35,975 bases of DNA, taken from NCBI GenBank assembly GCA_002334985.1, contig DDBY01000146.1, positions 1-35,975 of the forward strand, in the 5' to 3' direction. This document shows, one piece after another, positions 10,266 through 26,601 of the stretch (positions within the stretch are counted from its first letter, which is position 1; every line of letters begins with the position of its first letter). The notes under the pieces were generated by a model. The model searched no databases, had not been told where the DNA came from, and saw only the letters and a program-made list of their open reading frames with translations. The DNA is from Micavibrio sp. UBA2020 (GTDB taxonomy: Bacteria; Pseudomonadota; Alphaproteobacteria; Micavibrionales; UBA2020). The position numbers were made by a program, and so were the translations under genes.

Positions 10266-11300
10266 ATGACAGCCGAAGCCGATTTTTCTTCCAAGCAGAT
10301 GCCCGCCGTTGTTATCGGCCTGTCTGCCGTGGTGGTCGCGGTGCAGGGGCATGAGCCCAAAGTTTTCATCGTCCGCGGCGCCGAACACGCGCTGGCCGCC
10401 GGTGTGACCTCACCGAACGAAGAGGGCGATGCGCTGCCTTTCGGTCCGTTCGACCCGCTGCAGCACAAAACGCTCGAAGAGGGTCTGCGCACATGGGTGC
10501 GTGACCAGACACCGCTCAGCCCCGGTTATTTCGAACAGCTTTATACTTTTGGCAACCGCGGCCGCTATGCGGGGCAGCGTGATGAAACGAAACGCGTTGT
10601 ATCCGTCGGCTATCTGGCACTCACGCATGAAAAGCCGAATGCAGAAAAATCCGAACGTGTTTTCTTCGGCAATTGGTATGACTATTTCCCGTGGGAAGAC
10701 TGGCGCGACGGCAAGCCGCGCATTCTGCAAGACGCTATCGAGCCCGGCCTCAAGCGCTGGATAGCCGCAGCCGATACCGCAGAAGAAAAAGAGCACCGCC
10801 GCATGCGCGCGCAGGTTTGCTTTGGCCTTTCCGACGCCAAGGGTGCGGCGGCGGCATGGGACGAAGAAAAAGTGCTGGAGCGCTACGAGCTTTTGTACGG
10901 CGCGAACCTTGTGTACGAGTCTATCCGCGACAAGGGCATGAAGGTCGATTATGTGCTGGTGCCTGGCCGCTCGATGCTCTATGACCACCGCCGCATTCTG
11001 GCGACGGCGATGGGGCGTTTGCGCGGCAAGCTGAAATACCGCCCCGTGGTGTTTGAATTGATGGCGGCGGAATTTACGCTGCTCAATTTGCAAAAAACGG
11101 TGGAGGCGATTGTCGGCCACCGCCTGCATAAACAAAACTTCCGCCGTCTGGTCGAAGGCTCCGGCATGGTCGAAGAGGTCGCCGGCAAAAAATCCGCCGA
11201 AGCGGGTGGACGCCCCGCCGCGCTGTTCCGTTTCCGCCGCGACGTGCTTTTGGAGCGCTCCGCGCCCGGCGTGAAGCTTTCAGCGAGCATGGGCGGCTGA
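10266..11300 (+). CDS. nrtR: NrtR-type Nudix-related transcriptional regulator of NAD metabolism
   Basis: The 344-residue protein has the two-part NrtR build. Residues about 12-160 are Nudix-like (VVIGLSAVVVAV, then PFDPLQHKTLEEGLRTWVRD and the hallmark YFEQLYTFGNRGR at 88-100). Residues about 255-335 form a winged helix (RPVVFELMAAEFTLLNLQKT to GRPAALFRFRRDVLLE). The Nudix box is degenerate: the REXXEE catalytic core is replaced by WVRDQ, so hydrolysis is unlikely, as in known NrtR proteins that sense ADP-ribose. NrtR proteins repress NAD biosynthesis and salvage genes and release DNA on ADP-ribose binding. Its position 2 kb before nadABC fits. It is longer than typical NrtR (about 230), mainly from an insert around residues 150-230. 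No copy of the 23-bp dyad precedes this gene itself. Confidence 0.85.
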   Translation: MTAEADFSSKQMPAVVIGLSAVVVAVQGHEPKVFIVRGAEHALAAGVTSPNEEGDALPFGPFDPLQHKTLEEGLRTWVRDQTPLSPGYFEQLYTFGNRGRYAGQRDETKRVVSVGYLALTHEKPNAEKSERVFFGNWYDYFPWEDWRDGKPRILQDAIEPGLKRWIAAADTAEEKEHRRMRAQVCFGLSDAKGAAAAWDEEKVLERYELLYGANLVYESIRDKGMKVDYVLVPGRSMLYDHRRILATAMGRLRGKLKYRPVVFELMAAEFTLLNLQKTVEAIVGHRLHKQNFRRLVEGSGMVEEVAGKKSAEAGGRPAALFRFRRDVLLERSAPGVKLSASMGG

Positions 11301-11356: not shown

Positions 11357-11368
11357 TTCGCATATTGA

Positions 11369-11391
11369 CTTATGCTCATTCTGAGACTAAG
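11369..11391. promoter_or_regulatory. 23-bp operator-like dyad before the gene at 11426
   Basis: CTTATGCTCA, spacer TTC, TGAGACTAAG: 8 of 10 positions are symmetric. It lies directly behind a candidate -35 (TTGACT, 11365-11370), so a bound protein would block the promoter. Related dyads precede nadA and the gene at 24327. NrtR is encoded immediately upstream and is the candidate binder (inference). Confidence 0.6.
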
Positions 11392-11425
11392 TTGCGGCAA
11401 GATATAAATTGCAGGAGCCAGAATC

Positions 11426-12178
11426 ATGACAGAGAAAAACCCCTACGACGGTACGCGCATTTTCAAACCCGCGCGTCCGCTCGATGACGTGATTGCGTCC
11501 CTGCCCAAATACAAGGGTGCCGAGGCGCGCGTCATGGCGGGGCCCGATACCTACCGCCGTCTGTACGCGGAGGCAGAGACCTTTTTGCAAAGCCAGCCGA
11601 CATTCAGCCTTGCCGAGGCCGCGCAAAAACAGGGCGTGAGCGAAAGCGCCTTCATCGCCCTCGCCGACAAGGGCGAGGCGCTGCTTATCGAATTTAACGG
11701 CAAACAATATGTGCCCGCCTGCAGCTTCGGCGCGGATGGAAAAATAGACGCGCTCAAAGTCGATATCGCGCGCGAATTCGTGCTGGAAGGGCATCAGCAT
11801 TATTTCAAATTCATGGACTACATGAAATTCATGCATGAACAGCAAACCGACATCGTCGATTTGACGATGAATGAAAAGCAGCTCTCCGCGCTTTTCAATC
11901 AGGCAGGGCTGGCAGGTTACCGCTGCAGCATCAGCGTGATGGCCAGCATGAACCAGCTTGCCGACCACCGCCATAAAATCCCTGCGGCTTTCGACAGGCT
12001 GGTACAGCATCTCGACAGTGCCGTGACACATGGCGGGTGGGACCCTATGGGCGGGCTTTCGCGGCCGTTCCGCGACAAATACGGCATCCCCGGCCAGACC
12101 ATACACGAACAAAGAACGGCCTATGTGCCGCCCGCGCCGAAAAAAGAAAAACCCGCAAACAAAGGGCCGCGGCAATAA
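11426..12178 (+). CDS. Unrecognised protein with a possible helix-turn-helix/antitoxin-like segment
   Basis: The 250-residue soluble protein has no family I can name. Residues about 50-110 (FSLAEAAQKQGVSESAFIAL, then ADKGEALLIEFNGKQYVPAC and SFGADGKIDAL) resemble the DNA-binding plus 'VPAWQFD-DG' layout of MbcA/ParS/Xre-type antitoxin proteins, but this is only a pattern likeness. A His/Met-rich middle (EGHQHYFKFMDYMKFMHEQQ) and a Pro/Lys-rich tail follow. GCAGGAG lies 8 bases before the ATG. It has its own promoter region with the 23-bp dyad shared with nadA. No toxin gene adjoins it. Convergent with the ankyrin gene at 12200. Confidence 0.75.
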   Translation: MTEKNPYDGTRIFKPARPLDDVIASLPKYKGAEARVMAGPDTYRRLYAEAETFLQSQPTFSLAEAAQKQGVSESAFIALADKGEALLIEFNGKQYVPACSFGADGKIDALKVDIAREFVLEGHQHYFKFMDYMKFMHEQQTDIVDLTMNEKQLSALFNQAGLAGYRCSISVMASMNQLADHRHKIPAAFDRLVQHLDSAVTHGGWDPMGGLSRPFRDKYGIPGQTIHEQRTAYVPPAPKKEKPANKGPRQ

Positions 12179-12199
12179 GCTGTCCGGCGCAGCGCGGCG

Positions 12200-13078
12200 T
12201 CAATAAGGTTTAGGCCCGCCATAGGTTGCTTTTTGTTTGGGCGACGGGCGCAGGCCGATGCTGCGCAGGGCGGCTTCGCTGCCTTCCAGCGGCCGTATAA
12301 GATTGCCGAGTTTCTTGCGCCATTTATGGTTGAATGCCGCGGGCATGCCGGCCTGCATCAGCTGCAGCGCGGCGCGGCCATGTTTTTTCTTGATGGCAAG
12401 GTCAAGTGCGGTTTCGCCCAGCGGGTTCAGGGCATCCAGCCGCGCGCCGGCCTTCAGCAGCGGCGCAATAAGATGCTCCATCCCTGTTTCCGCCGCGGCC
12501 ATCAAAAGCGTGCGCTGGTAAGCATCCGTTTGCAGCGGGTCGAAAGGTTTTTTGATAAGCGCATCCGCGCCTGTTTTATTTCCTGTCATCAGCGCCATCA
12601 TGAGCGGGGTGCGTTTGTCTGCATCCTTCACATCGCTTTGCGCGCCATAGCGCAGCAGCAGCGCGACATTTTCCCCGTAATAGCGGCTCAGCGCCGCATA
12701 GTGCAGCGGCGTGCGACCGCCGCGGTCGGGCAGGTTCACATCGCCGCCCTGATGCACCAGAAATTGCAGTGCCTTGGCTTCACCCTTGGCCGCGTATTCG
12801 TGCACGATGGTTGCGCCATCTGCATTCGCATCACGCAGCAGGCTGTGGTCATGTTCCAGTAGAATTTCACAGGCGGCAAGATTGCGCTGCCATAGCGCAT
12901 AGCGCAGCGGCTGCATATCGCCTTTCTTTTCCCAGCGCACGGCATCGGGATAGGCTTTGAGCAGCGCGGGCAGCGGCGTCACATCGCCGCGCCCCGACAA
13001 ACATTGCCGCAGCAAGTGATAGGGGGCTTTCGGGGGCCAGAGCCCCACGGCCTTTTTAAAATGGTCGGTGATACGCAT
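12200..13078 (-). CDS. Ankyrin-repeat protein
   Basis: The 292-residue protein has about six ankyrin repeats between residues 50 and 240. Two are canonical (GGDVNLPDRGGRTPLHYAAL and ARLDALNPLGETALDLAIKK); others are diverged (ADGATIVHEYAAKGEAKALQ, KDADKRTPLMMALMTGNKTG). The C-terminal 45 residues are basic (KWRKKLGNLIRP to SPKQKATYGGPKPY). There is no signal peptide or membrane segment, so it is likely a cytosolic binding scaffold or a secreted effector by a non-Sec route. It is divergent from nadA across a 271-base region full of regulator sites and may share control with it. It is related in type to the ankyrin genes at 24549-27768 but lacks the C-terminal region shared by the two at 24549 and 25829. 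Confidence 0.85.
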   Translation of the reverse strand: MRITDHFKKAVGLWPPKAPYHLLRQCLSGRGDVTPLPALLKAYPDAVRWEKKGDMQPLRYALWQRNLAACEILLEHDHSLLRDANADGATIVHEYAAKGEAKALQFLVHQGGDVNLPDRGGRTPLHYAALSRYYGENVALLLRYGAQSDVKDADKRTPLMMALMTGNKTGADALIKKPFDPLQTDAYQRTLLMAAAETGMEHLIAPLLKAGARLDALNPLGETALDLAIKKKHGRAALQLMQAGMPAAFNHKWRKKLGNLIRPLEGSEAALRSIGLRPSPKQKATYGGPKPY

Positions 13079-13234
13079 GGGCGCAGAGTAGCAAAGTGTT
13101 TTTCATAGGTCAAAGCACAGAAGTCATTGGGCCGGACGCACTTGATTCGCGCAAAAGTCGCCAAAGGCAGCTGTTTTGGGGGTGTCTGGGGCGGGCGACT
13201 GGGTTTTATCTAACTGTAATTAAACAATAAAATA

Positions 13235-13257
13235 CTTATACTCATTTTGTTGATAAA
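13235..13257. promoter_or_regulatory. nadA operator-like dyad, distal copy
   Basis: The left half CTTATACTCA is a full match to the shared dyad; the right half TGTTGATAAA is weak (6 of 10). It overlaps the candidate nadA -35 TTGATA at 13250-13255. Confidence 0.55.
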
Positions 13258-13278
13258 GCACTTTACTTATGCTCTAAT
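13250..13278 (+). promoter_or_regulatory. Candidate sigma-70 promoter of nadABC
   Basis: TTGATA at 13250-13255 and TCTAAT at 13273-13278, 17 bases apart, each one mismatch from consensus. Start near 13285, about 65 bases before nadA. Both elements are covered by copies of the 23-bp dyad, the arrangement expected for repression. Confidence 0.6.
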
Positions 13279-13288
13279 AGAGTATATA
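13266..13288. promoter_or_regulatory. nadA operator-like dyad, middle copy
   Basis: CTTATGCTCT, spacer AAT, AGAGTATATA: 7 of 10 positions symmetric. It lies 31 bases from the distal copy, about three helical turns, and spans the -10 box. Confidence 0.58.
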
Positions 13289-13310
13289 AAATGCTCATAG
13301 AGAGCAAAAC
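13288..13310. promoter_or_regulatory. nadA operator-like dyad, proximal copy
   Basis: AAAATGCTCA, spacer TAG, AGAGCAAAAC: the core GCTC/GAGC is kept and the outer bases have drifted. It shares its first base with the end of the middle copy and covers the predicted transcript start, 40 bases before the nadA ATG. Confidence 0.45.
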
Positions 13311-13349
13311 GCCGCAAAAACACAAAAGCGGCACCGCAGGAGAAAAAGA

Positions 13350-14372
13350 ATGTTCGATACCGTTATCCATCCCGAAGCCGACCTGAAATTCACCCCCGCC
13401 GTCGCGCGCGAAGTTGCGCCGCTGTATGCGCGCGTGAAGAATGTGGTGAGCGAGCTGGACTGGAGCGTGCACGCCCCCTACATCCTCGAAATTAACCGCC
13501 TGAAGCGTGAAATGGGTGCGGTCATTCTGGCGCATAACTACATGACGCCGGAAATTTTTCACTGCGTGTCCGACTTCGCGGGCGACAGCCTGCAGCTGGC
13601 GCAGCAAGCGGCGAAGACCGAGGCCGACCTGATTGTGCAGGCGGGCGTTCACTTCATGGCCGAGACGTCGAAAATTCTGAGCCCGCAAAAAACCGTTCTT
13701 ATTCCGGATATGCGCGCGGGCTGCTCGCTCGCGTCTTCCATCACGGGGGCGGATGTGCGTTTGCTGCGCGAAAAATATCCGAATACGCCGATTGTCACCT
13801 ATGTGAATACCTCGGCGGATGTGAAAGCGGAATCGGATATCTGCTGCACGTCGTCGAATGCGCTGAAAATTGTCGAAAGCCTGCCGCAAGACCAAGTCCT
13901 GATGATTCCGGACAAATATCTGGCGCGCAATATCGCCAAACAAACCAAAAAGAAAATCCTGACCTGGGAAGGCGCGTGCGAGGTGCATGAAAAATTCACC
14001 CCCGCAGATATCAAAAAAATGCGCAAGGCATGGCCGGATGCGGTTGTACTGGGTCACCCCGAATGCCCGCCCGAAGTTGTGGCCGAATGCGATTTCGCGG
14101 GCTCGACCAAGGCCATGGCGGATTATGTGACCGACAAACGTCCCAGCCGCGTGGTGCTGATTACCGAATGCTCCATGTCCGACAACCTGCAGGCCGCAAA
14201 TCCTGATGTCAAATTTGTCCGCCCCTGCAACCTCTGCCCGCACATGCAGCGCATCACCCTGCCGGCGATTTTGAAAAGCCTGCAAACGCGCACGACCGAA
14301 GTGCATGTCGATGCCGCTGTCGCAGACCGCGCCCGTGCAGCGGTTGAGCGGATGCTGGCCGTAAAAATCTAA
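13350..14372 (+). CDS. nadA: Quinolinate synthase NadA
   Basis: NadA condenses iminoaspartate with dihydroxyacetone phosphate to quinolinate using a [4Fe-4S] cluster. The 340-residue sequence has the family motifs [11 protein letters not shown] (59-69), [27 protein letters not shown] and the cluster cysteines at Cys125 ([10 protein letters not shown]), Cys239 ([10 protein letters not shown]) and Cys293/Cys296 (RPCNLCPHM). GHPEC and the terminal C-x-x-C match the long NadA form. AGGAG lies 7 bases before the ATG. It is first in nadA-nadB-nadC, with 37 bases to nadB. The upstream region has a good promoter overlapped by three dyads, so it is probably repressed when NAD is sufficient, most simply by the nearby NrtR. 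Confidence 0.96.
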
Positions 14373-14409
14373 CCACTCAATACCGGCGCTGTGCCGAAGG
14401 ATGTGAACC

Positions 14410-16059
14410 ATGACCACCCAAAAAACCGCAAACATCGAAACCAGAACGGCTGATGTTGTGATTGTCGGCTCCGGCGCGGCGGGGCTTTTTGCGGCGCTGA
14501 CGCTGGCGGCGGATAAACAGGCGGGCGGTAAAAATACGCGCATCATGGTTCTCAGTGAAAAACCCCTCGGCGGTGTTTGCGCCAGCGCCTGGGCGCAGGG
14601 CGGCATTGCCGCGGTTGTTGCGCCTGAAGACACCACCGACAGCCACATCGCCGATACACTGAAAGCGGCGGCGGGCACGGCGGATATCACGGCGGTGAAA
14701 ACGCTGGTCGAAGCCGCGCCGCGCTATGTCGAAATTCTGGCCAAATATGGTGTGCGGTTCGAGCGTGACGAAGAGGGCGCCTACCGCCTGAACCGCGAAG
14801 CCTGCCACGCCTGCCGCCGCGTTTTGAAGGCGGCAGCCGCCGACGGTTTCGGGGCGGAACTGATGCGCGCCCTCAGCGAAGCCGTGCGCCAGACGCCGGA
14901 TATCGTATTCGTGGCCGGTGTATCGGCGGAGCGCCTGCTGCGCGAAGGCGCGGCGCGCACGGGGGCGGTCAGCGGTGTTTTGACCCGCCGCCTTGATGAC
15001 AACGCGCCGGTTGTATTTTTGGGCAAGGCCGTTTTGCTGGCCACGGGCGGTGTTGGCGGACTTTTTGCAGCGACAACCAACCCGCTGCATGCCATCGGCC
15101 GCGGTGTGGCCATGGCGGCGCGCGCGGGCGCTGTTTTGTCCGACCTTGAATTCGTGCAGTTCCACCCGACTGCGCTGGATATCGGCGAAGACCCGGCGCC
15201 GCTCGCAACCGAAGCGTTGCGCGGTGAAGGCGCCTATCTGCTGAACAGCCGCGGCGAGCGTTTCATGCTGGATTACCACGAAGCGGGGGAGCTGGCACCG
15301 CGCGACGTGGTCAGCCGCGGCATTTTCGCGCAAATGCAAAAAGGCCAGAAAGTCTATCTGGATTGCCGCCATATCGATACCGCGCATTTCCCCGCGCTGA
15401 TTTCCGCGGCGGCGCGTGCAGGGCTGAACCCGCAGCGCGACCTTATCCCTGTCATGCCCGCCGTGCATTACCACATGGGCGGTATCGCGACGGATTTGAA
15501 CGGTCGCAGCAGCCTTGGCGGTCTTTGGGCGGCGGGCGAATGTGCGGCAACGGGCCTGCACGGTGCGAACCGCCTTGCCAGCAATTCGCTGATGGAAGCC
15601 GTCGTCATGGGCGCACGCGCCGCCGAAGACATCGCCGCGGCGATTGCCGGAAAAACCGCAGCGCCCAAGGCGGATTTGACGGATGTACGCCTGCTGCCGA
15701 TCGCGAAAGAGCCGGTGGTGGAGCGTGATATTCTGCGCCATATCATGAGCGAGCTTGTCGGCGTTATCCGCAGTGAATCCGGCCTCAGCGCCGCCATCCG
15801 CGATTTCATGCGCCTTGGCGCAGCGGCTGAAAACCGCGATGCGCGCACGGCGGATATGGCGCTTCTGTGCCGCATGATTGCAGTATCCGCGCTGATGCGC
15901 CGCGAAAGCCGCGGCGGCCATTGCCGCAGCGATTATCCGGATGCTGTACGCGCGCTGCAAAAACGCAGCTTCGTCACGATGAAAGAAACCGAAGCGGTTG
16001 CGGCCAGCCTGATTGCCGTCCCCGCCGTGCAAAATATTCAAACGGAGAAAGTCGCATGA
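14410..16059 (+). CDS. nadB: L-aspartate oxidase NadB
   Basis: NadB oxidises L-aspartate to iminoaspartate with FAD, feeding NadA. The 549-residue protein has the FAD-binding GSGAAGLFAALTLAAD at about residues 21-36, the loop CASAWAQGGIAAV, the substrate region VQFHPTAL and ALRGEGAYLLNSRGERFM, and the C-terminal flavin contact HGANRLASNSLMEAVV. These identify NadB rather than succinate dehydrogenase, as does the nad operon. One local oddity: the usual REGGHSxRRILH stretch reads REACHACRRVLK, so the Gly-Gly, Ser and final His are changed while the Glu and the Arg-Arg are kept. Length is typical (about 540). It overlaps nadC by four bases (ATGA). Confidence 0.95.
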   Translation: MTTQKTANIETRTADVVIVGSGAAGLFAALTLAADKQAGGKNTRIMVLSEKPLGGVCASAWAQGGIAAVVAPEDTTDSHIADTLKAAAGTADITAVKTLVEAAPRYVEILAKYGVRFERDEEGAYRLNREACHACRRVLKAAAADGFGAELMRALSEAVRQTPDIVFVAGVSAERLLREGAARTGAVSGVLTRRLDDNAPVVFLGKAVLLATGGVGGLFAATTNPLHAIGRGVAMAARAGAVLSDLEFVQFHPTALDIGEDPAPLATEALRGEGAYLLNSRGERFMLDYHEAGELAPRDVVSRGIFAQMQKGQKVYLDCRHIDTAHFPALISAAARAGLNPQRDLIPVMPAVHYHMGGIATDLNGRSSLGGLWAAGECAATGLHGANRLASNSLMEAVVMGARAAEDIAAAIAGKTAAPKADLTDVRLLPIAKEPVVERDILRHIMSELVGVIRSESGLSAAIRDFMRLGAAAENRDARTADMALLCRMIAVSALMRRESRGGHCRSDYPDAVRALQKRSFVTMKETEAVAASLIAVPAVQNIQTEKVA

Positions 16060-16916
16060 CCAGCGTCGCCCCCCTGTCCCCCTTTATCATTGAGCCCCTC
16101 GTGCGTATGGCGCTTGCCGAAGACCTCGGCCGTGCGGGTGATATTACATCCGACAGCACGGTGCCCGAATCTGCGCGTGCCTGCGTTGTCATCGCCGCGC
16201 GCGAAGAGGGGCGCATTGCGGGTGTGGACATCGCCGAAGCGGCCTTTCGCATGGTGGACCCGAGCCTGAAAATCACCCGCCTGCTGCGCGAAGGGGCGGA
16301 TGTAAAAAAAGGCGATGAAGTGATGAAGGTGGAGGGGCGCGCGCGCTCTATCCTGACGGCGGAGCGTGTGGCGCTCAATTTCATGGGGCACATGTCGGGC
16401 GTGGCGACTTTGACGCTGAAAATGGTGCGTGCAGTTGGCAACCACAAAGCGAAAATCGCCGCGACGCGCAAAACCCTGCCGGGTCTGCGTGCCGTGCAGA
16501 AATACGCGGTGATGATTGGCGGGGGCATTCCGCACCGCTACGGGCTTGATGATGCGGTTTTGATTAAAGACAACCACATTGCCATGTCGGGCGGTGTGAG
16601 GAGTGCCATCCGCAATGCCAAGGCGCATATCGGCCATACTGTAAAAATCGAGGTGGAAGTCGATACGCTTGCGCAGCTGGCCGAAGTGCTGGAAGAGGGC
16701 GTGGATATCGTGATGCTCGACAACATGACAAACGCGCAGATGAAAGAAGCCGTCGCCATGGTGGCTGGCCGCGCGGTTGTCGAGGCTTCGGGCGGCGTGA
16801 CGCTTGCGCGCATTCCTGAAATTGCGGCCACTGGCGTGGATTTGATTTCGTCGGGCGCGGTCACGCATAGCGCGCCCAATTTCGACGTCGGGCTGGATTA
16901 CAAAGCGGCGGCGTAA
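16056..16916 (+). CDS. nadC: Nicotinate-nucleotide pyrophosphorylase (carboxylating) NadC
   Basis: NadC joins quinolinate and PRPP to give nicotinate mononucleotide, CO2 and pyrophosphate. The 286-residue protein shows the family signature TRKTLPGLRAVQKYAVMIGG, then PHRYGLDDAVLIKDNHI, the EVEVDTLAQL strand, IVMLDNM and the barrel end ASGGVTLARI and DLISSGAVTHSAP. The start at 16056 is preferred because it overlaps the nadB stop (ATGA), has CGGAGAAAG upstream and gives the family N-terminus; a longer frame from 15867 would only translate nadB in another phase. Last gene of the nad operon; no clear terminator follows. Confidence 0.96.
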   Translation: MTSVAPLSPFIIEPLVRMALAEDLGRAGDITSDSTVPESARACVVIAAREEGRIAGVDIAEAAFRMVDPSLKITRLLREGADVKKGDEVMKVEGRARSILTAERVALNFMGHMSGVATLTLKMVRAVGNHKAKIAATRKTLPGLRAVQKYAVMIGGGIPHRYGLDDAVLIKDNHIAMSGGVRSAIRNAKAHIGHTVKIEVEVDTLAQLAEVLEEGVDIVMLDNMTNAQMKEAVAMVAGRAVVEASGGVTLARIPEIAATGVDLISSGAVTHSAPNFDVGLDYKAAA

Positions 16917-16980
16917 GCGGCACAAAAATCCCTGAAAAAAATAATGGTTTCGCGTTGTTTCAGCGGCGCGGAAGGCGTAT

Positions 16981-17014
16981 AGTTTAAACGACTCGCATCC
17001 GAGTTACGAAAACT
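16981..17014. promoter_or_regulatory. Dyad before the TauE/SafE-ctaA operon
   Basis: Outer arms AGTTT/AAACT and inner arms ACTCG/CGAGT are arranged symmetrically around CATC, with five unmatched bases between outer and inner arms on each side. It ends 24 bases before the ATG at 17039. The spacing differs from the nadA-type dyad, so it is a different site. Likely a regulator-binding site; the regulator is unknown. Confidence 0.45.
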
Positions 17015-17038
17015 AAACCCTCCACCGCAGAAAGCATC

Positions 17039-17863
17039 ATGGCCGACACATCGATGATACCCGCCGAACTGATTTTGCTCTTGCTGGCAATCGGTTGCGT
17101 GGGCGGGTTTTTGTCGGGGCTTTTGGGCGTGGGCGGCGGCATTATTTTCGTTCCGGCGCTTTTTTTCTCCCTCTCCTCCCTCGGTTTTAGCGAAGACCAT
17201 GCGATGCACATCGCCATCGGCTCGTCCTTGGCCGTTGTGATGGCGACAGGCAGCACATCCGCCTTCAGCCATTACAAACGCGGCGGTGTCGATATGGCGA
17301 TTTTACGCGGCTGGGGGCCTGCGATTGTTATCGGGGTTATTCTGGGCGCGATGCTGGCCTCCAGCGTCAAAAGCGTGGTTTTGAAAGAAATCTTCGCCGG
17401 CATGACGATGCTGATTGCCGTCTATATGGCCTTTTCCAAGGACAAGGCGGAGCCCAAGCCGATGCGTTTCCTTACCGAAAAGGTGCAAAAGGGCATTGCG
17501 GCCTTCGTCGGTGTTATTTCCGCCATGCTCGGCGTGGGCGGTGCGATTTTGACGGTGCCGCTGATGACCTGCATCGGCCTGCCCATGCCGCGCGCGGTGG
17601 GCACGGGTGCGGCGCTGGGCGTTGCTGTCGCGGTGCCGGGGGTTATCAGTTATATGGTCTCCGGCATGCTGGTCAGCGATACGCTGCCGCCGTGGTCGAT
17701 TGGCTATGTGAATCTTTTGACGGTGGCGATGATTATCCCCTCGTCCATGTTGCTGGCGCCTGTGGGCGTGCGTTTGTCGCATAACATGCCGCGCGCGATG
17801 CTGCGCCGTGTGTTCGCCGTGGTGCTGGTGATTGTTTCCGTCCGGATGTTTATGAGCCTTTGA
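17039..17863 (+). CDS. TauE/SafE family membrane transporter (DUF81)
   Basis: The 274-residue protein has about eight hydrophobic segments and the two family repeats: GGFLSGLLGVGGGIIFVPAL at residues 21-40 and the matching VISAMLGVGGAILTVPLM near 160-177, each followed by an amphipathic GSSLAVV/GTGAALGV segment. The family exports sulfite, sulfoacetate or related organic anions across the inner membrane; many members have unknown substrates. It is full length. The heme A synthase gene begins one base after its stop (TGAcATG), so the pair is translated from one message, which hints at a link with cytochrome oxidase assembly or respiration. The substrate is not predictable from sequence. Confidence 0.88.
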   Translation: MADTSMIPAELILLLLAIGCVGGFLSGLLGVGGGIIFVPALFFSLSSLGFSEDHAMHIAIGSSLAVVMATGSTSAFSHYKRGGVDMAILRGWGPAIVIGVILGAMLASSVKSVVLKEIFAGMTMLIAVYMAFSKDKAEPKPMRFLTEKVQKGIAAFVGVISAMLGVGGAILTVPLMTCIGLPMPRAVGTGAALGVAVAVPGVISYMVSGMLVSDTLPPWSIGYVNLLTVAMIIPSSMLLAPVGVRLSHNMPRAMLRRVFAVVLVIVSVRMFMSL

Positions 17864-17864
17864 C

Positions 17865-18917
17865 ATGACTGCTGTGCCCGCCGCCACGACAAAAGATTCC
17901 AGCCGCGCCATTGCTGCATGGCTTTTTGCCTGCGCCGCTGCTGTTTTTCTGATGGCGATTATCGGCGCGGTCACGCGCCTGACGGAATCCGGCTTGTCGA
18001 TTGTGGAATGGGCGCCTGTCAAAGGGGCGTTGCCACCGCTCAATGCCGCGGACTGGCAGCGTGAATTCGACCTTTACAAACAAACGCCGCAATACCTGAA
18101 GGTCAACCGCGGCATGAGCCTTGATGAATTCAAGGACATTTATTTCTGGGAATGGCTGCACCGTTTGTGGGGGCGCATTATCGGTTTGATTTACGCGCTG
18201 CCGCTGGCTTATTTCTGGCTGCGCGGGCGCATACCGGCGGAGGCGAAACCGCCGCTGCTGGGCATTCTGGCACTGGGCTTTGCGCAGGGTTTGATGGGCT
18301 GGCTGATGGTCAAAAGCGGCCTTGTCGATATGCCTGCCGTCAGCCATTACCGCCTTGCGGCGCATCTGATGCTGGCGTTTTTGATTTACGCCTGTTTGCT
18401 GCGCATGGGGCTTGCCTTCTCCTTCCGCCCGTCGCCCGATGCGGGGCGCGGCGCGGGGTTGCGCGGCGGTATCAAAATCGTGCTCGCCCTTGCGGTTTTG
18501 ACGATGGTCTGGGGCGCATTCGTTGCGGGCTTGCGCGCGGGGCTTCTTTATAACACTTTTCCGATGATGGATGCGCATTGGCTGCCGCCTGAGCTGTGGG
18601 CGCATAAACCGGTTTGGAAGGCGTTTATCGAAGAGCCCGCCACGGTACAATTCACCCACCGCGTGCTGGCGATATTGACGGTTGTTTCCGGTTTGTGGCT
18701 TTTCGTACGCGCGCGCGGCTTTCATTTGCAGGGGCGCGCGGGCACGCTGTTCCGTCTTTTGCCGTGGGCGCTGCTGGCGCAGGCGGCGCTGGGTGTGACG
18801 GCGCTTTTGCATGCGGTGCCTGTTGCGCTCGGCGCGGTGCATCAGGGCGGGGCACTGGTGGTTCTCAGCCTGCTGGTCTGGCTTTTGTTTGAAATCCCCG
18901 ATATCCGGAGCAACTGA
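17865..18917 (+). CDS. ctaA: Heme A synthase, COX15/CtaA type
   Basis: CtaA oxidises the C8 methyl of heme O to the formyl of heme A for aa3-type cytochrome oxidase. The 350-residue inner membrane protein has about eight transmembrane helices. Conserved histidines fall in FWEWLHRLWGRIIG, SHYRLAAHLMLAF, VQFTHRVLAI and GAVHQGGALVV, and the N-terminal family motif IGAVTRLTESGLSIVEW is intact with the following WAPVKGALPPL. The length and the long loop with EFKDIYFWEWLHR place it in the proteobacterial/mitochondrial COX15 subgroup. It follows the TauE-like gene by one base and its stop overlaps the next start (TGATG). No ctaB, ctaG or oxidase subunit genes are in the window. Confidence 0.95.
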   Translation: MTAVPAATTKDSSRAIAAWLFACAAAVFLMAIIGAVTRLTESGLSIVEWAPVKGALPPLNAADWQREFDLYKQTPQYLKVNRGMSLDEFKDIYFWEWLHRLWGRIIGLIYALPLAYFWLRGRIPAEAKPPLLGILALGFAQGLMGWLMVKSGLVDMPAVSHYRLAAHLMLAFLIYACLLRMGLAFSFRPSPDAGRGAGLRGGIKIVLALAVLTMVWGAFVAGLRAGLLYNTFPMMDAHWLPPELWAHKPVWKAFIEEPATVQFTHRVLAILTVVSGLWLFVRARGFHLQGRAGTLFRLLPWALLAQAALGVTALLHAVPVALGAVHQGGALVVLSLLVWLLFEIPDIRSN

Positions 18918-19162
18918 TGGCTGATTTTATCGCTCTTTTGCAAAACTCCGCGCTGGCGCAGTACTATCTGGCCGCCGTTTTGTGCCTGTGGCCGGTGCTG
19001 CGCGCCTATCGCCGCATGGGGCTCTCCTGCGCTTATGCCGTGCTTTTGTTCGTACCGCTTTTGGGTTTTGCGCTGGTGATGTTGGCGGCGCTGCGTAAAT
19101 GGCCGCTTTTGCCGCCGCAGCCGCCGCGCCCGAAACGCACGAAAAAGGAGACGGCGGCATGA
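18917..19162 (+). CDS. Small two-helix membrane protein
   Basis: The 81-residue protein has two hydrophobic helices (about 13-30 and 38-58) joined by a basic loop YRRMGLSCAY, and a Pro/Lys-rich cytosolic tail. The start overlaps the ctaA stop by one base and its own stop overlaps the next gene's start, so all are coupled. The second half (AYAVLLFVPLLGFALVMLAA then LRKWP) is clearly alike to the next protein (YWALLIIVPFLAPVMVWAFA then YARWP), so the two are tandem paralogues. Function unknown; membrane helper of the operon is possible. Confidence 0.72.
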   Translation: MADFIALLQNSALAQYYLAAVLCLWPVLRAYRRMGLSCAYAVLLFVPLLGFALVMLAALRKWPLLPPQPPRPKRTKKETAA

Positions 19163-19392
19163 ATGCGCTTTTCCCCGCCATCCCCGAATGGCTGTCGTAT
19201 CTGGTTGCGGGTCTGACTATTTTCGCCATGCTGTGCGCGGGTGCGGTGATTGCCGCGCGTGCGGGGCGCAACCCTTATTGGGCGCTTTTGATTATCGTGC
19301 CGTTTCTGGCGCCGGTGATGGTCTGGGCTTTCGCCTATGCGCGCTGGCCGTCGATGGAACAAAAATCCGCCGCACCGCCGCCGGCCGCTTAA
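19159..19392 (+). CDS. Small two-helix membrane protein, paralogue of the preceding one
   Basis: The 77-residue protein has two membrane helices (about 11-31 and 38-57), loop AARAGRNPYW, ending in YARWPSM and a Pro/Ala tail. I took the ATG at 19159, which overlaps the upstream stop as ATGA, rather than an in-frame ATG at 19099 inside the previous gene. The R-G-R/S-P-Y-W-A-LL pattern followed by P and W-F-A-ARWP is common in short alphaproteobacterial hypothetical proteins. Last gene of the operon; it overlaps the end of the leftward EEP gene by four bases. Confidence 0.72.
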   Translation: MNALFPAIPEWLSYLVAGLTIFAMLCAGAVIAARAGRNPYWALLIIVPFLAPVMVWAFAYARWPSMEQKSAAPPPAA

Positions 19393-20369
19393 TCTGCACG
19401 CAGCGATAAAACCGCCACCGTCGGCAGATGGTCGGAGCCGATGGCAGGCGCAAGCGTGTAATCCTGCACCGAAATTTCTTCGCTAACCAGTACATGGTCA
19501 ATCGGCAGGCGCAGCGGCGCAGGCAGCCATACAGGCCATGTGCCGTTCAGCCCGTATCCTTGCCGCGCATCTGTTAATGACAAACCGGTTTTGAGTTTTT
19601 TAAGCGCGGGGCACCACGGCGTTGCATTAAAATCCCCCGTGACAACCAGCGGCGTGTCTTTGCGCGCCGAAAATTCTTTGGTAATGGCCGCAAAATCCGC
19701 ATCGCGCAGCGCAAGCCCATGCAGCGGCGTGCGCGGATGCAGGGATAGAATCCGCACCGTATGACCGTTTATGTCGAGCGTGGCCACATGCGCGGGCACG
19801 CTGGCATCTGCGAAAGACACGCGTTTGATGGCAAGCGTGTGCAGGCGCGACAGAAACGCAAGCCCGCGCGCGTCGCGCGAAGGCTCTATCAGATAATACG
19901 GATAGGCGGTGGTTATTTTTTTTAAAAACGCGGCATGTGCCGCGTTAATTTCCGATAGCGCGATAACGTCGGGATTTTCCGCCGCAATCAGTTTTTGCAG
20001 CGCATCTGAATCCTGATTGAGAAACAGCACATTCGCCTGCAAAATTTTGAAAGACGCCGCAGGCTTTGTTTTCGGGGCGGGCAAATAATAAGGCGCAAGC
20101 GTCCATGTATTGAGCGCAAAGCCAAGGGCGAGCGCGCCCCAGACAGCTTTACGCACGCGCGCCGCGGCGGCAAAGCCGATCAGAAAAATCAGACCGATGA
20201 AATAATACGCGGCAAAATGGCTCGGCAGATCCGTCAACAGTACCGATACGGATATAAACGGCGTGATACTGCCAAGAACAGCCCCTGCCGCGCCGATATA
20301 GACAAGCCCGCGCAGGGTCTTGCTCCATGCGCCGCCTTGCGGTTTGCTGTTTATTGCTTGCTCAGCCAT
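19389..20369 (-). CDS. Membrane-anchored endonuclease/exonuclease/phosphatase family protein
   Basis: The 326-residue protein starts with about three membrane helices (residues 20-100), then an EEP domain. Visible catalytic motifs are KILQANVLFLNQDSD (Asn), DVIALSEINAAH (metal-binding Glu), LSLHPRTP (His), VVTGDFNATPW (Asp and Asn), LPIDHVLVSE and the final GSDHLPTVAVL (Asp-His pair). All core residues are present, so it should be an active phosphodiesterase or phosphatase facing the periplasm or cytosol from the inner membrane. The substrate (nucleic acid, phospholipid head group or phosphoinositide-like) cannot be told. It overlaps the end of the upstream alpha/beta hydrolase gene by 19 bases, so they are co-transcribed. 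Confidence 0.85.
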   Translation of the reverse strand: MAEQAINSKPQGGAWSKTLRGLVYIGAAGAVLGSITPFISVSVLLTDLPSHFAAYYFIGLIFLIGFAAAARVRKAVWGALALGFALNTWTLAPYYLPAPKTKPAASFKILQANVLFLNQDSDALQKLIAAENPDVIALSEINAAHAAFLKKITTAYPYYLIEPSRDARGLAFLSRLHTLAIKRVSFADASVPAHVATLDINGHTVRILSLHPRTPLHGLALRDADFAAITKEFSARKDTPLVVTGDFNATPWCPALKKLKTGLSLTDARQGYGLNGTWPVWLPAPLRLPIDHVLVSEEISVQDYTLAPAIGSDHLPTVAVLSLRAD

Positions 20370-21370
20370 GTAAAGCGCGTGCCGTCTTGGGTGGCGCCGC
20401 TGATGGTGCCGTTTTTCAGCCAGCTTTCCGCCGCGGCGTCACCGCGCAGCTTGGCGTCGAACATCGCCAGCGCGCTGCCGCGCACCGCATCGACTTCGTT
20501 TGCATCGGCGGGGCCAGCGCCTGTGAACCGAACCGCGCCCGAAATGCCGCCAAAACCGTGATAGGCGCCGTCCATCAGCAAAAGATAGCGGTCAGGCCCT
20601 GCGGGCGCGCCGTTCCAGGCTTCCATCCGCCATTTATAATCTTTGTCGTTGTTCGCGGCACTGTCGTTGGTGCCGGTAATCATTAAAAACGGCGCGTCTA
20701 TTTTGGCCAGCGCCGCGGCATCGACCTGTTTGCTGGTGCCCTGCGGGGAGACGATGACAAAAGCCTGCGCGCGCTTTTCGTGGAAATCATAACGCTCGCC
20801 GCCGCCCAGCAGGCGCTTGACCTGCATGCCGGCCAGCAGCTGCGCCGTATGCGCGCCGAATGAATGTCCGCCGATGCCGATTTTGCTGCCATCGACGCGC
20901 CCCTTGAGAGGGGGGATGAGGGTTTCAAGATTTTGCAGCTGGTCAATCAGGTATGAAACCTCGCGCGGGCGGTCGTCCCAGTCTTTGAACACCAGCGGGT
21001 TTTTGATATTCGGCTTGGTACCTTCGCGCATGGAATCGCTGTGCGTGGGCTGCAGTACCAGATACCCGTGGCTCGCCCAATATTCCGCCAGCGGCACATA
21101 GGCGGTATGGCTGCCGAACGCGCCATGCGACCAGACGATAACGGGCATGGCGCGCGCGCTGCGGCTGAACGTCGCGCGGTATTGCAGCGCGCTGCGGCGG
21201 CTGGGCATGCTCAGCTGTCCGTCAAACTTGGATATATCTTTGTAAGGCCCCATGCCGGGTTTGTAAAAGGCGCTGGTATCGACGGGCGGCTTTGCGGCCT
21301 CGTTTGCAAAAACCGCGGGCAGCGAGGCCATAAAAAACACAAAACCCAGAAAATAACCCAGCAGGCGCAT
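20351..21370 (-). CDS. Exported alpha/beta hydrolase (dienelactone hydrolase/PAF acetylhydrolase-like)
   Basis: The 339-residue protein has a signal peptide (LLGYFLGFVFFMASLPAVFA, cleavage near residue 22). The alpha/beta-hydrolase core shows the oxyanion strand PVIVWSHGAFGSHTAYVPLA (76-95), nucleophile elbow GGHSFGAHTAQLLA with Ser170, an acid candidate in LMITGTNDSAANN and the His in GAYHGFGG. The long helix before the elbow (REVSYLIDQLQNL) and the overall order resemble the platelet-activating-factor acetylhydrolase/dienelactone-hydrolase-like exported esterases. The substrate is unknown; it probably cleaves an ester in the periplasm. It sits just after the icd terminator, upstream of and overlapping the EEP gene. 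Confidence 0.85.
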   Translation of the reverse strand: MRLLGYFLGFVFFMASLPAVFANEAAKPPVDTSAFYKPGMGPYKDISKFDGQLSMPSRRSALQYRATFSRSARAMPVIVWSHGAFGSHTAYVPLAEYWASHGYLVLQPTHSDSMREGTKPNIKNPLVFKDWDDRPREVSYLIDQLQNLETLIPPLKGRVDGSKIGIGGHSFGAHTAQLLAGMQVKRLLGGGERYDFHEKRAQAFVIVSPQGTSKQVDAAALAKIDAPFLMITGTNDSAANNDKDYKWRMEAWNGAPAGPDRYLLLMDGAYHGFGGISGAVRFTGAGPADANEVDAVRGSALAMFDAKLRGDAAAESWLKNGTISGATQDGTRFTWLSKQ

Positions 21371-21398
21371 GGCAAAGTCCTCCCATCCGGCTAAAAAA

Positions 21399-21431
21399 TA
21401 AAACCCGGTGCCAGCGTAGCACCGGGTTTTA
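21399..21431 (-). terminator. Terminator behind icd
   Basis: A perfect 12-bp stem, TAAAACCCGGTG at 21399-21410 and CACCGGGTTTTA at 21420-21431, has a 9-base loop. Read leftward it is followed by T6 (21393-21398), so it ends the icd transcript. It lies about 117 bases past the icd stop, behind the tandem repeat. Confidence 0.88.
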
Positions 21432-21454
21432 TTACAGGCAATAAAGCAAAAAAC

Positions 21455-21566
21455 CTGCGTTTTATGCAGCTTTTTTCAGCCGCCTCATTTTATACGCGGC
21501 TTTTTTCAGCCGCCGCACTTTATGCGGCTTTTTTCAGCCGCCGCACTTTATGCGGCTTTTTTCAGC
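21455..21566 (+). repeat. Tandem 28-30 bp repeat at the icd 3' end, with plus-strand terminator-like hairpins
   Basis: TTTTTTCAGC recurs at 21471, 21501, 21529 and 21557 (steps of 30, 28 and 28 bases). The 21557 copy is the end of icd itself (Leu-Lys-Lys-Ala-Ala-stop); the others repeat that sequence beyond the stop. On the plus strand each T6 is preceded by a hairpin: CTGC/GCAG (21455-21469), GCCGC/GCGGC (21479-21500), GCCGCA/TGCGGC (21512-21528 and 21540-21556). Stem pairing is kept although sequences differ, so they look like four terminators against antisense transcription into icd. Confidence 0.75.
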
Positions 21567-22777
21567 ATTGCGGTATCAAGGTTCGCAATCAGCTTGTCCA
21601 TGAACTGTTCGGTTGTCAGGTGTTTTTGGTCGGGGCCTACCAGAAGTGCGAGGTCCTTGGTCATGTCCCCGCCCTCGACGGTATCGATGCAAACACGCTC
21701 CAGCGTTTCGGCGAAGGCGACAACATCCGGCGTACCGTCGAACTGGCCGCGGTATTTCAGGCCCTGCGTCCATGCGAAAATCGACGCGATGGGGTTGGTC
21801 GATGTCGGTTTGCCCTGCTGGTGCATGCGGTAGTGACGGGTGACCGTGCCGTGCGCGGCTTCGGTTTCAACCGTTTTGCCGTCGGGCGTCAGCAGTACCG
21901 AGGTCATGAGGCCGAGCGAGCCGAAGCCTTGCGCGACGCTGTCGGATTGCACGTCGCCGTCGTAGTTTTTGCAAGCCCAGAGGAAGCCGCCTTCCCATTT
22001 CAGGGCGGAGGCAACCATGTCGTCAATCAAGCGGTGTTCATAGACAAGGCCTGCAGCGTCGAATTTCGCCTTGAATTCCGCATCGAAGATTTCCTGAAAG
22101 ATGTCTTTGAAACGGCCGTCGTATGCCTTGAGGATGGTGTTCTTGGTGGACAGATAAACCGGATAGCCGCGTGCAAGGCCGTAGTTAAAGCAGCTGCGCG
22201 CGAAACCGGCGATGGATTCGTCCGTGTTGTACATGCCCATGGCAACGCCGCCGCCTTTGGCAAAGTCATAAACTTCCCATGTTTCCGGCGTGCCGTCGTT
22301 ATCGGGCGTGAAGGTCATGGTCAGCTTGCCGCGGCCGAGGATTTTCACGTCGGTCGCTTTGTACTGGTCGCCAAAAGCATGACGGCCAACCACAATCGGC
22401 TTGTTCCATGTGGTGACAAGGCGCGGGATGTTTTTGCAAATGATGGGTTCGCGGAAAACCGTGCCGTTCAGAATATTGCGGATGGTGCCGTTCGGCGATT
22501 TCCACATTTTTTTCAGCTTGAATTCTTCAACGCGCGCCTCGTCCGGCGTGATGGTCGCGCATTTGATGCCGACGCCGTATTGCTTGATGGCGTTTGCGGC
22601 GTCAATCGTAATCTGGTCGTTGGTTTCGTCGCGCGACTGCACGGACAGGTCGTAGGATTTGAGGTCGATGTCGAGATACGGCTTAATCATCCGCTCGATA
22701 ATCATATCCCAGATGATGCGGGTCATTTCGTCGCCGTTCATTTCGACGACGGGGGTTTTGACTTTAATCTTGCTCAT
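21548..22777 (-). CDS. icd: NADP-dependent isocitrate dehydrogenase, eukaryote-like type
   Basis: Icd oxidatively decarboxylates isocitrate to 2-oxoglutarate in the TCA cycle. The 409-residue protein matches the homodimeric type II family also found in mitochondria: start [20 protein letters not shown], then [24 protein letters not shown], the metal-binding segment [20 protein letters not shown] and the cofactor region [20 protein letters not shown]. It ends [12 protein letters not shown], about the usual length. Upstream AGGAGAGATGAC gives a strong ribosome site. It follows the Sel1-type gene by 37 bases and may be co-transcribed with it. Its 3' end has been copied in tandem downstream. Confidence 0.96.
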
Positions 22778-22814
22778 GTCATCTCTCCTTGATGTGTTTA
22801 GGGGTGTGTGAATT

Positions 22815-23660
22815 TCAGGGGGCGGCGGGGGCGGTTTCGTTTTCGCTCTCGGCCGCGGCAGGGGCTTCGGTTTCTTCCGCGGGGGTACCTTCTTCGGCGG
22901 CGGCGATGTCTTCTATCGCCTGTGCGGCGGCGGCTTCGCCTGCGTTTTCCGGTGCGGCTTCAACTACGGTTTCCGGTGAAGTTTCACCGGTGGTTTCCGG
23001 TGCAGCTTTACCGGCGGTTTCCGGCGTAGCTTCACCGGCGGCGGGCTCTATGGCAGACGGGGCGCTGGCGTCGGTTTTTTTCTCGCCTTTTTTATCTGCC
23101 GCCCTTTTATCCTCGGCTGCTTTTTTCTTTGCGGCGTCGGCAGCCTCTGCTGCAGCTTTTTTCCATGCGCTTGCGGCGGCTTTGGCGGCTTTGGTTTGTG
23201 CGGGCGTCAGGCTGTGCTCTTTCACCAGCGCATCGCGCGATGTCTGCGCCCATTTGCGCTCGGCCGATGGCAGGGCTTCGATGGCCAGCGTGTACCATTT
23301 GTATGCGTCTTCGGGTTTTTTGACGCGTTTTTCAAGCGCGGCCAGACGGATAAAACTTTGCGCATAACCCCCGCGCGCGCTTTGTTCAAACCACCCGCGC
23401 GCTTTTTTGATATTGCGCGGCAGCCCGCCCTTGCCCTTGCCGTAAAGGTCGCCAAGGATGAATTGCGCGCGCGCATCGCCCTCTTCGCCCATCAGCAAAA
23501 GGTCTTCCATCGGGTGCGGGTCTTCGGCGGCCAGTTTCTCGTACACGGGGTCTGACAGGTATTTAATGGTTTCCGCCGCCGCGCTGTGCGCGAAGAGCGT
23601 CAGGGCGAGCGCGGAGACCGCAAGGGCGGAAAAAACGGTGCGGGGGGCGAAAAACGTCAT
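22815..23660 (-). CDS. Exported Sel1-like protein with a low-complexity repeat tail
   Basis: The 281-residue protein has a signal peptide ([21 protein letters not shown], cut near residue 29). Sel1/TPR-like repeats follow at about 50-130 ([20 protein letters not shown], then [20 protein letters not shown] and [20 protein letters not shown]). Next come a Lys/Ala-rich helical stretch ([20 protein letters not shown]) and an Ala/Pro/Glu tail of about 80 residues with PETxGEA-like units of 8 residues. I used the ATG at 23660, which overlaps the DUF2794 stop (ATGA) and starts the signal peptide, rather than a longer frame from 23870 that would run through the neighbour. The repetitive acidic tail suggests a flexible periplasmic spacer. 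Partners are unknown. Confidence 0.8.
22944..23039. repeat. Four 24-bp in-frame tandem repeats
   Basis: Units at 22944, 22968, 22992 and 23016 share GGTTTCCGG and a TTCACCGG-like end (first unit degenerate). Each adds eight residues to the acidic tail of the Sel1-like protein. Such arrays change copy number easily by slipped replication. Confidence 0.7.
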
Positions 23661-23989
23661 GCCTGTTTGTCCTCGAACACTTCCAAAGCTTCGCGCAGGG
23701 AGGCGCTTTGCTTCAGGGTTTTGTTGCCTTCGTAAACGATGTATTCCGCCTGTTTCATGAAACTGCGCGGCGGTACTTTCGCAATCGAATAAATGGGGTT
23801 TTCGCGTGACGAGCGAAAAATGGAGAACACGGCCATATCCGGCAGGCTGTCGATGGCGTAGTCGCGCCACTCGCCACGCTTCACACGCTCGCCGTAAACA
23901 CCGAGGATGAGGCTCAGCTCCCCCTGGCTAAAGGCCGGTTTGCCCGCGAATTTATTTCTGAAGTAAAGCAGCATAGCGGCGCGGCGCAT
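23657..23989 (-). CDS. DUF2794 family protein
   Basis: The 110-residue protein matches the alphaproteobacterial DUF2794 pattern: LSLILGVYGERVKRGEWRDY, then AIDSLPDMAVFSIFRSSREN, PIYSIAKVP and the C-terminal SLREALEVFE. Function is not known; the family is small, cytosolic and nearly confined to Alphaproteobacteria. It begins a leftward run with the Sel1-like gene (four-base overlap) and icd. No strong ribosome site is seen before the ATG at 23989. Confidence 0.85.
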   Translation of the reverse strand: MRRAAMLLYFRNKFAGKPAFSQGELSLILGVYGERVKRGEWRDYAIDSLPDMAVFSIFRSSRENPIYSIAKVPPRSFMKQAEYIVYEGNKTLKQSASLREALEVFEDKQA

Positions 23990-24078
23990 CTCCCCGTGTC
24001 TTGGCGTGAACTCGGGGGCATTTTAGGGCGCGCGGACGCGGAAATAAAGCAAATTGCACCCTGTTTCCGCAGGGCGCG

Positions 24079-24327
24079 TCAGCAATCCAGATTGCGCGGG
24101 CCGAAGGGCTCCTTCTCGCTGTACCAATGTGTTTTGTCGATGGTTCTGGCTTTCGCTGCGGGCGGGGCTTTTATGCCGAGGCGCCGCGCCGCTGTTTCCA
24201 GCACAAAGGCGCGGCCTTCGGCATCCAGCGCGCCCAGTGCCTCCATCACCGCGCAAAGGGCGCGGGTTTCCCGAATGCAGGCTGTTTTGCTGAAATCTCC
24301 GGCGGCTTTGCGGGTGGGGGTGTTCAT
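24079..24327 (-). CDS. Small unrecognised protein under the shared dyad
   Basis: The 82-residue soluble protein has a central helical part (ALCAVMEALGALDAEGRAFV then LETAARRLGI) and a C-terminal TIDKTHWYSEKEPFGPRN with a final Cys. I recognise no family. The LDAEGRAFVLETAARRLGI segment resembles short helical modules found in alphaproteobacterial DNA-associated or phage-like proteins, too weakly to assign. AAGGAGAAG gives an excellent ribosome site and the promoter region carries the most symmetric copy of the dyad found before nadA. An alternative frame on the other strand lacks these signals. Existence is well supported by these signals; function is open. Confidence 0.7.
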   Translation of the reverse strand: MNTPTRKAAGDFSKTACIRETRALCAVMEALGALDAEGRAFVLETAARRLGIKAPPAAKARTIDKTHWYSEKEPFGPRNLDC

Positions 24328-24341
24328 CGGGCTTCTCCTTA

Positions 24342-24364
24342 TTTATTCTCAATTTGAGTATAAA
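24342..24364. promoter_or_regulatory. Best copy of the 23-bp dyad, before the gene at 24327
   Basis: TTTATTCTCA, spacer ATT, TGAGTATAAA: 9 of 10 positions symmetric. It ends 15 bases before the ATG of the leftward gene. A candidate -35 (TTGACG leftward, 24391-24396) and -10 (TATTAT leftward, 24370-24375, spacing 15) lie just upstream, so the dyad would cover the transcript start. It also lies in the divergent region shared with the ankyrin gene at 24549. Confidence 0.65.
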
Positions 24365-26596: not shown

Positions 26597-26601
26597 CGCC
26601 G

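Follow-up and report, generated by a model that had tools for sequence, protein, structure and literature searches.

NAD is an essential cofactor, and the bacterial regulators described for its production include NrtR, a Nudix-domain repressor sensing ADP-ribose, and NadQ. The NadQ regulon has been described by Leyn and colleagues, according to whom NadQ corresponds to COG4111, has the consensus ttATRCTCannntGAGYATaa and controls nadABC as its core target, with nadD and nadE extending the regulon in some groups (PMC5343134). In betaproteobacteria, another study gives nadC and a periplasmic binding protein as NadQ targets (PMC11452294), while NadQ is called ATP-responsive and Nudix-like in the title of Minazzato 2022. 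Variation of NadQ regulon membership as such is therefore already known. Here, we analyzed a stretch of 35,975 nucleotides from Micavibrio sp. UBA2020 (hereafter the window), in which five 23-bp palindromic dyads lie ahead of nadA and of two orphan genes encoding proteins of 250 and 82 amino acids (aa). It is very likely, judging from sequence, that these dyads are operators of a NadQ repressor encoded at 10266-11300 and that nadABC and both orphan genes form one regulon. A limited literature search returned no NadQ regulon for this lineage, in which a set of operators is predicted here.

Predicted operator dyads in the window

A pattern search of both strands of the window, allowing up to three mismatches, returned four dyad matches (11369, 13235, 13266 and 24342); the expectation derived from 100 dinucleotide shuffles is 0.01. 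A position matrix was also derived from the nadA operators of relatives (30 sites), the window's own genome being left out, with 60 mononucleotide shuffles as null. Scored with this matrix, the same four places and a fifth at 13288 are the top five of the window (Table 1), the sixth-best place reaching 5.1 bits and the shuffle maximum 13.7 bits. All five dyads are intergenic and each is located 5' of a gene. The preliminary description of this sequence, which had listed five dyads confined to promoter regions, is therefore borne out, by the pattern search for four and by the matrix from relatives for all five. Neither method revealed a dyad ahead of nadQ itself in the window. Over the whole genome (G000), the pattern matches 10 places at up to three mismatches, versus one for a reversed control pattern.

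As read from the sequence, the 250-aa gene has a predicted promoter, TTGACT-17-TAAGTT, whose spacer is taken up by the 11369 dyad; the 13266 dyad likewise fills the 17 bp between TTTACT (13262-13267) and TATAAA (13285-13290). On the minus strand, a TTGACG/TTATTT promoter is directly followed by the 24342 dyad, which stands 15 bp ahead of the ATG at 24327.

Measured between their starts, the three predicted operators of nadA are 31 and 22-24 bp apart, and this array recurs in six genomes (G005, G006, G008, G011, G013 and G014) from two other genera of the family, g2 and g4, genus g1 being represented by the window's own genome alone. In all six, a site with a degenerate right arm is likewise found 31 bp ahead of operator 2. 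The dyad at 13288, already described as weak, proves to be the third member of this recurring array, its equivalent having two mismatches in G006, G008, G011 and G014. G013 contains two nadA copies (C10:5447-6457 and C1:476639-477646), both with the same three-operator array; this genome is rated 7% contaminated, and the double nadA is either a duplication or a second strain.

Identity of the regulator

The gene neighbouring these dyads clusters with nadABC (Table 1), and it had been proposed from the letters alone that its product, named NrtR, binds them. The neighbouring gene is retained here as the regulator, while its name has to be corrected. Indeed, phmmer identified 7q91, a 'NADQ transcription factor', as its best solved relative (E 4.9e-75, residues 52-341 of 344). 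The next chain is 3gz5, a 'MutT/nudix family protein' (E 1.2e-9), whose best stretch covers residues 237-327 in the C-terminal domain. The NCBIfam NrtR-type equivalog NF050029 reached 67.8 bits versus a cut-off of 400. Because the similarity to NadQ spans most of the length and the NrtR model is far under its cut-off, NrtR was rejected, and the regulator is by sequence NadQ (COG4111), a family separate from NrtR.

Several features are nonetheless reminiscent of NrtR. The C-terminal winged helix matches PF21906 (NrtR_WHD) at residues 262-323 (E 5.5e-19), with PF19368 on the same stretch, and the gene adjoins nadABC. Furthermore, 3gz5 shows a second matched stretch, and residues 5-102 weakly match the MutT/nudix chain 3gz8 (E 0.088). 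The entries 3gz5, 3gz6 and 3gz8 are presumably all NrtR. Against these likenesses stand the difference in E value between 7q91 and 3gz5, the equivalog score, the lack of any NUDIX domain in Pfam up to E 0.1, and a dyad that equals the published NadQ consensus (PMC5343134). That the regulator is an ADP-ribose-sensing NrtR is thus extremely improbable.

Tracking of the dyad with nadQ

Fifty-five genomes, including the window's own, were searched, and a NadQ match was obtained in 24. Two of these, G031 (33% identity, 246-aa frame) and G049 (40%, 251 aa), resemble NadQ in the C-terminal part alone and were counted as NrtR-like, which gave a final split of 22 genomes with nadQ and 33 without. A search for nadA covered 35 of the 55 genomes and yielded 25 copies from 24 of them (two in G013). 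The upstream region was assessed for 24 copies, that of G017, which starts at a contig end, being left out. In genomes with nadQ, all 18 nadA copies (17 genomes) carry two or three upstream dyads at up to three mismatches, versus none of the six assessable copies in genomes without nadQ, for which the best candidates have 6-7 mismatches (shuffle P 0.68-0.95). Hits ahead of nadA hence follow the presence of the regulator.

At up to two mismatches, the 22 genomes with nadQ contain 97 dyads and the 33 without contain 50, of which 20 are in G002, G003 and G022; the reversed control gave 5 and 10, respectively. Of 223 strand contexts, 24 have TTGAC beginning exactly 5 bp ahead of the 21-bp core, as expected of operators filling a promoter spacer. 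This offset was observed for none of 16 dyads examined from genomes without nadQ, one locus being taken from each of 16 genomes. Ten of these 16 sit in stop-free frames of at least 150 aa, and no downstream frame is common among them, one of 30 frames matching the other set at 20% identity.

Table 1. Features of the nadQ-nadABC region and of the two orphan genes (window coordinates).
Feature	Position	Strand	Support
nadQ, COG4111/NadQ family transcription regulator, 344 aa	10266..11300	+	phmmer and Pfam
Predicted promoter of 250-aa gene, -35 TTGACT and -10 TAAGTT	11365-11370 and 11388-11393	+	read from sequence
Predicted NadQ operator, 250-aa gene	11369..11391	+	1 mismatch, 20.1 bits
Lineage-specific protein of 250 aa with a predicted Rv2175c-like winged-helix fold	11426..12178	+	predicted NadQ target
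Ankyrin-repeat gene, convergent with 250-aa gene, inside the nadQ-nadA stretch	12200-13078	-	Pfam
Predicted NadQ operator 1 of three, nadA	13235..13257	+	2 mismatches, 18.9 bits; right arm degenerate
Predicted NadQ operator 2, nadA	13266..13288	+	3 mismatches, 33.8 bits
Predicted NadQ operator 3, nadA	13288..13310	+	4 mismatches to 21-bp core, 20.4 bits; weak in this genome
nadA, quinolinate synthase	13350..14372	+	PF02445 E 1.5e-114; NF006878, TIGR00550 above cut-off
nadB, L-aspartate oxidase	14410..16059	+	NF005701, TIGR00551 above cut-off
nadC, nicotinate-nucleotide diphosphorylase	16059..16916	+	TIGR00078 above cut-off
Lineage-specific 82-aa protein	24079..24327	-	predicted NadQ target
Predicted NadQ operator, 82-aa gene	24342..24364	-	0 mismatches, 34.5 bits

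Two orphan genes with conserved predicted operators

Counting the window's own genome, the 250-aa and 82-aa genes were each found in two of the 55 searched. In G013, a homologue of the 250-aa protein (52% identity) keeps the dyad, as CATAGGCTCATTCTGAGCATAAG, within the same TTGAC-17-TAAGTT promoter as in the window. Similarly, the homologue of the 82-aa protein in G002 (60% identity) is preceded by the dyad ATTATACTCAAATAGAGCATAAT, 21 bp ahead of its start (1 mismatch, 36.4 bits). For both orphan genes and one homologue each, none of 5000 dinucleotide shuffles was as good as the dyad in each of the four stretches. As far as footprinting shows, the earlier assignment of both genes to an NAD-linked regulon is supported, and two orphan protein families are thereby tied to NAD metabolism, each gaining a testable hypothesis.

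When genome contigs were searched for members of the 250-aa family, two loci emerged, one of them that of G013; a thinned sample of 385 genomes of the class contained no member besides the window's own gene. Due to this scarcity, conservation of the upstream region was checked solely in G013 and at L171, a distant homologue. As the 11369 dyad is located within the nadQ-nadA cluster, it might be a relic or a part of the nadQ-nadA control region, unrelated to the 250-aa gene. In G013, however, the homologue is borne by contig C3, away from nadQ (C10), and retains the dyad within its TTGAC-17-TAAGTT promoter, which makes such an origin very unlikely and argues for the 250-aa gene as the target. 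Its product is probably a second-tier DNA-binding protein. PF21531 matches one of 29 members of the family, weakly (E 0.15), and does not match the window's protein. Scattered Pfam hits over these 29 members (best E 0.025, one member) were rejected, and a row of a PDB profile search (E 0.15) was taken as chance. A defence or toxin-antitoxin function was rejected for this protein, a single PADLOC hit (E 0.029) being put down to chance and a weak Foldseek row (8qnl, NatRT, E 4.6) left unused.

The 82-aa protein has no Pfam or NCBIfam family and three homologues among about 5.8 billion proteins, a C-terminal motif, DKTHW-S-PFGPRN-DC, being kept in five of five aligned sequences. Its model is a weak helical hairpin (predicted local distance difference test, pLDDT, 67; predicted template modelling score, pTM, 0.38), too weak for a fold search. 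PADLOC gave no match for this protein, and a role in defence or as a toxin-antitoxin component was rejected. The gene lies about 7 kb beyond nadC and is divergent from an ankyrin-repeat gene at 24549, so that the 24342 dyad could serve the latter and leave the 82-aa gene outside the regulon. G002 indeed has the same divergent ankyrin gene, at 213 bp from its own dyad. Nevertheless, the dyad stands 15 bp (21 bp in G002) ahead of the 82-aa start, whereas the ankyrin start is 185 bp off, and it is directly downstream of a shared promoter-like TTGACGAATC...TTTCCGTATTA aimed at the 82-aa gene. Control of the ankyrin gene instead of the 82-aa gene by this dyad is therefore very unlikely, and the 82-aa gene is the favoured target.

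On the minus strand, between 21548 and 24327, the genes downstream of the 82-aa gene encode a DUF2794 protein, a Sel1-repeat protein and a member of the isocitrate/isopropylmalate-dehydrogenase family, an order that is, by reading of the sequence, the same in G002. Control by the 24342 operator may extend to the dehydrogenase-like gene. Ankyrin-repeat genes appear numerous in the window, at 12200-13078 and 24549-25784 according to Pfam, and at 25829-27147 and 27181-27768 by reading only.

A wider set of dyad-bearing genes

In total, 105 stretches around dyads were fetched (G022:C56 not among them), of which 100, together with the window, were clustered using frames whose start falls between 30 bp ahead of the dyad's end and 260 bp past it. 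Clusters resembling antisense or out-of-frame readings were left out by judgement, and some of the genomes are close relatives, so that cluster counts are not independent. Plausible genes that cluster in at least two genomes include nadA (14 genomes) and a zinc-type dehydrogenase (9 genomes, two families; PF08240, one member scanned). Clusters of five genomes each comprise a 313-336-aa protein without Pfam family, a gene with a weak, below-cut-off match to DUF4344 metallopeptidase beside a divergent 66-89-aa frame, and nicotinate phosphoribosyltransferase (NAPRT; G003, G011, G013, G021 and G022; PF17767, one member scanned). Finally, a Nudix hydrolase of the YffH/AdpP family (G000, G001, G002 and G006), an aldehyde dehydrogenase and a 264-aa protein are found in four genomes each. 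Genomes without detected nadQ, namely G003 and G022, and also G002 for the dehydrogenase and the Nudix hydrolase, contribute to these clusters.

The dyad-bearing Nudix hydrolase is above the cut-off of TIGR00052 (YffH/AdpP) and under that of PRK10729 (ADP-ribose diphosphatase). In G000:C11 (L006, 1-4500), two Nudix hydrolase genes are adjacent (366-1112 and 1212-1865), both above the TIGR00052 cut-off, and the second has tandem dyads at 1152 and 1175 at its promoter, a like pair occurring in G001, G002 and G006. Elsewhere in this genome, a dyad with one mismatch (G000:C219:6894; L005 2894-2916) precedes a 383-aa frame without Pfam family that did not cluster with other dyad genes and is possibly another NadQ target. 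The dyads at C136:10745, inside a YggS-like gene, and at C226:3139 were set aside as possibly due to chance. That at C106:6615, ahead of a shikimate-kinase-like gene (both names by reading), was also set aside; it is present in G001 and G002 as well and may reflect close relatedness.

Dyads at the Nudix hydrolase and at NAPRT suggest a control of NAD breakdown and salvage besides synthesis. More tentatively, Micavibrio-like NadQ might be a wider controller of NAD turnover, encompassing nadABC, salvage through NAPRT, ADP-ribose clearance by the Nudix hydrolase, dehydrogenases and a second tier of further genes via the 250-aa winged-helix protein, the 82-aa protein acting as a small partner or modulator; this broad scheme is rather less probable than not.

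Weighing the NadQ reading and a proposed mechanism

Several observations count against a regulon governed by NadQ. Among 113 dyads in fetched stretches, 43 lie within a stop-free frame of at least 150 aa on one strand; some may thus be chance and they need not all be operators. In G002 and G003 (99% complete each), nadQ, nadA and nadC were not found, yet these genomes contain 4 and 12 dyads; either the entire cluster was lost recently, leaving its operators orphaned, or the assemblies have a gap. G022 (73% complete) has dyads and nadQ was not found in it, while G007, G009 and G012 carry nadQ and have no dyad at up to two mismatches, nadA and nadC not being found there. The footprint of each orphan gene depends on one relative and, nadQ not being found in G002, part of this support, including the sole one for the 82-aa gene, comes from a genome with no detected regulator. 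In addition, the 250-aa homologue at L171 (30% identity) has no dyad, and nadQ was not found in its genome. Lastly, NAPRT of the window's genome (C189) has no dyad at up to three mismatches, which indicates that regulon membership varies.

The dyads of G002 and G003 would fit a dispersed repeat, or sites serving an unrelated regulator. The arms of the dyads vary while their symmetry is kept, the promoter geometry recurs, the presence of dyads ahead of nadA tracks nadQ, and the consensus is that of NadQ (PMC5343134); a repeat or an unrelated regulator is accordingly highly improbable. Operators of NadQ remain by far the better explanation of the five dyads.

We infer that a NadQ dimer would bind the palindrome via its C-terminal winged helices. 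Bound NadQ would occlude the -35 and -10 elements of nadA, through three tandem operators, and those of the 250-aa gene; at the 82-aa gene, it would obstruct the region of the start. The repressor would leave the DNA upon a change in the nucleotide that it senses, presumably ATP from the title of Minazzato 2022. The level of nadABC would thereby be set by the need for NAD, both orphan genes being co-regulated.

Comparison with known systems

The window's regulator shares with NrtR a C-terminal winged-helix DNA-binding domain and, very likely, the control of NAD genes; by full-length similarity it belongs to another family, the NrtR equivalog model being far under its cut-off. The 250-aa protein shares with Rv2175c of Mycobacterium tuberculosis (2kfs) a predicted winged-helix fold, but at 12% identity, with a C-terminal extension and no shared Pfam family, function is not transferable.

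The closest system is the NadQ regulon of alpha-, beta- and some gammaproteobacteria (structures 7q91-7q94), with which the window has the regulator family in common. Its palindrome resembles the landing site of this known regulator of NAD production, and the consensus palindrome, the location of nadQ beside nadABC and nadABC as core targets are also shared (PMC5343134). Compared with that description, the window differs by three tandem predicted operators ahead of nadA and its genome by predicted operators at the lineage-specific 82-aa and 250-aa genes and at a Nudix hydrolase, while relatives differ by operators at NAPRT, zinc-type dehydrogenase, aldehyde dehydrogenase and other genes. Dyads, regulator and nadABC target thus represent a known kind, the NadQ regulon, to which this locus adds a predicted lineage-specific membership with, for each orphan gene, a supporting footprint in one relative.

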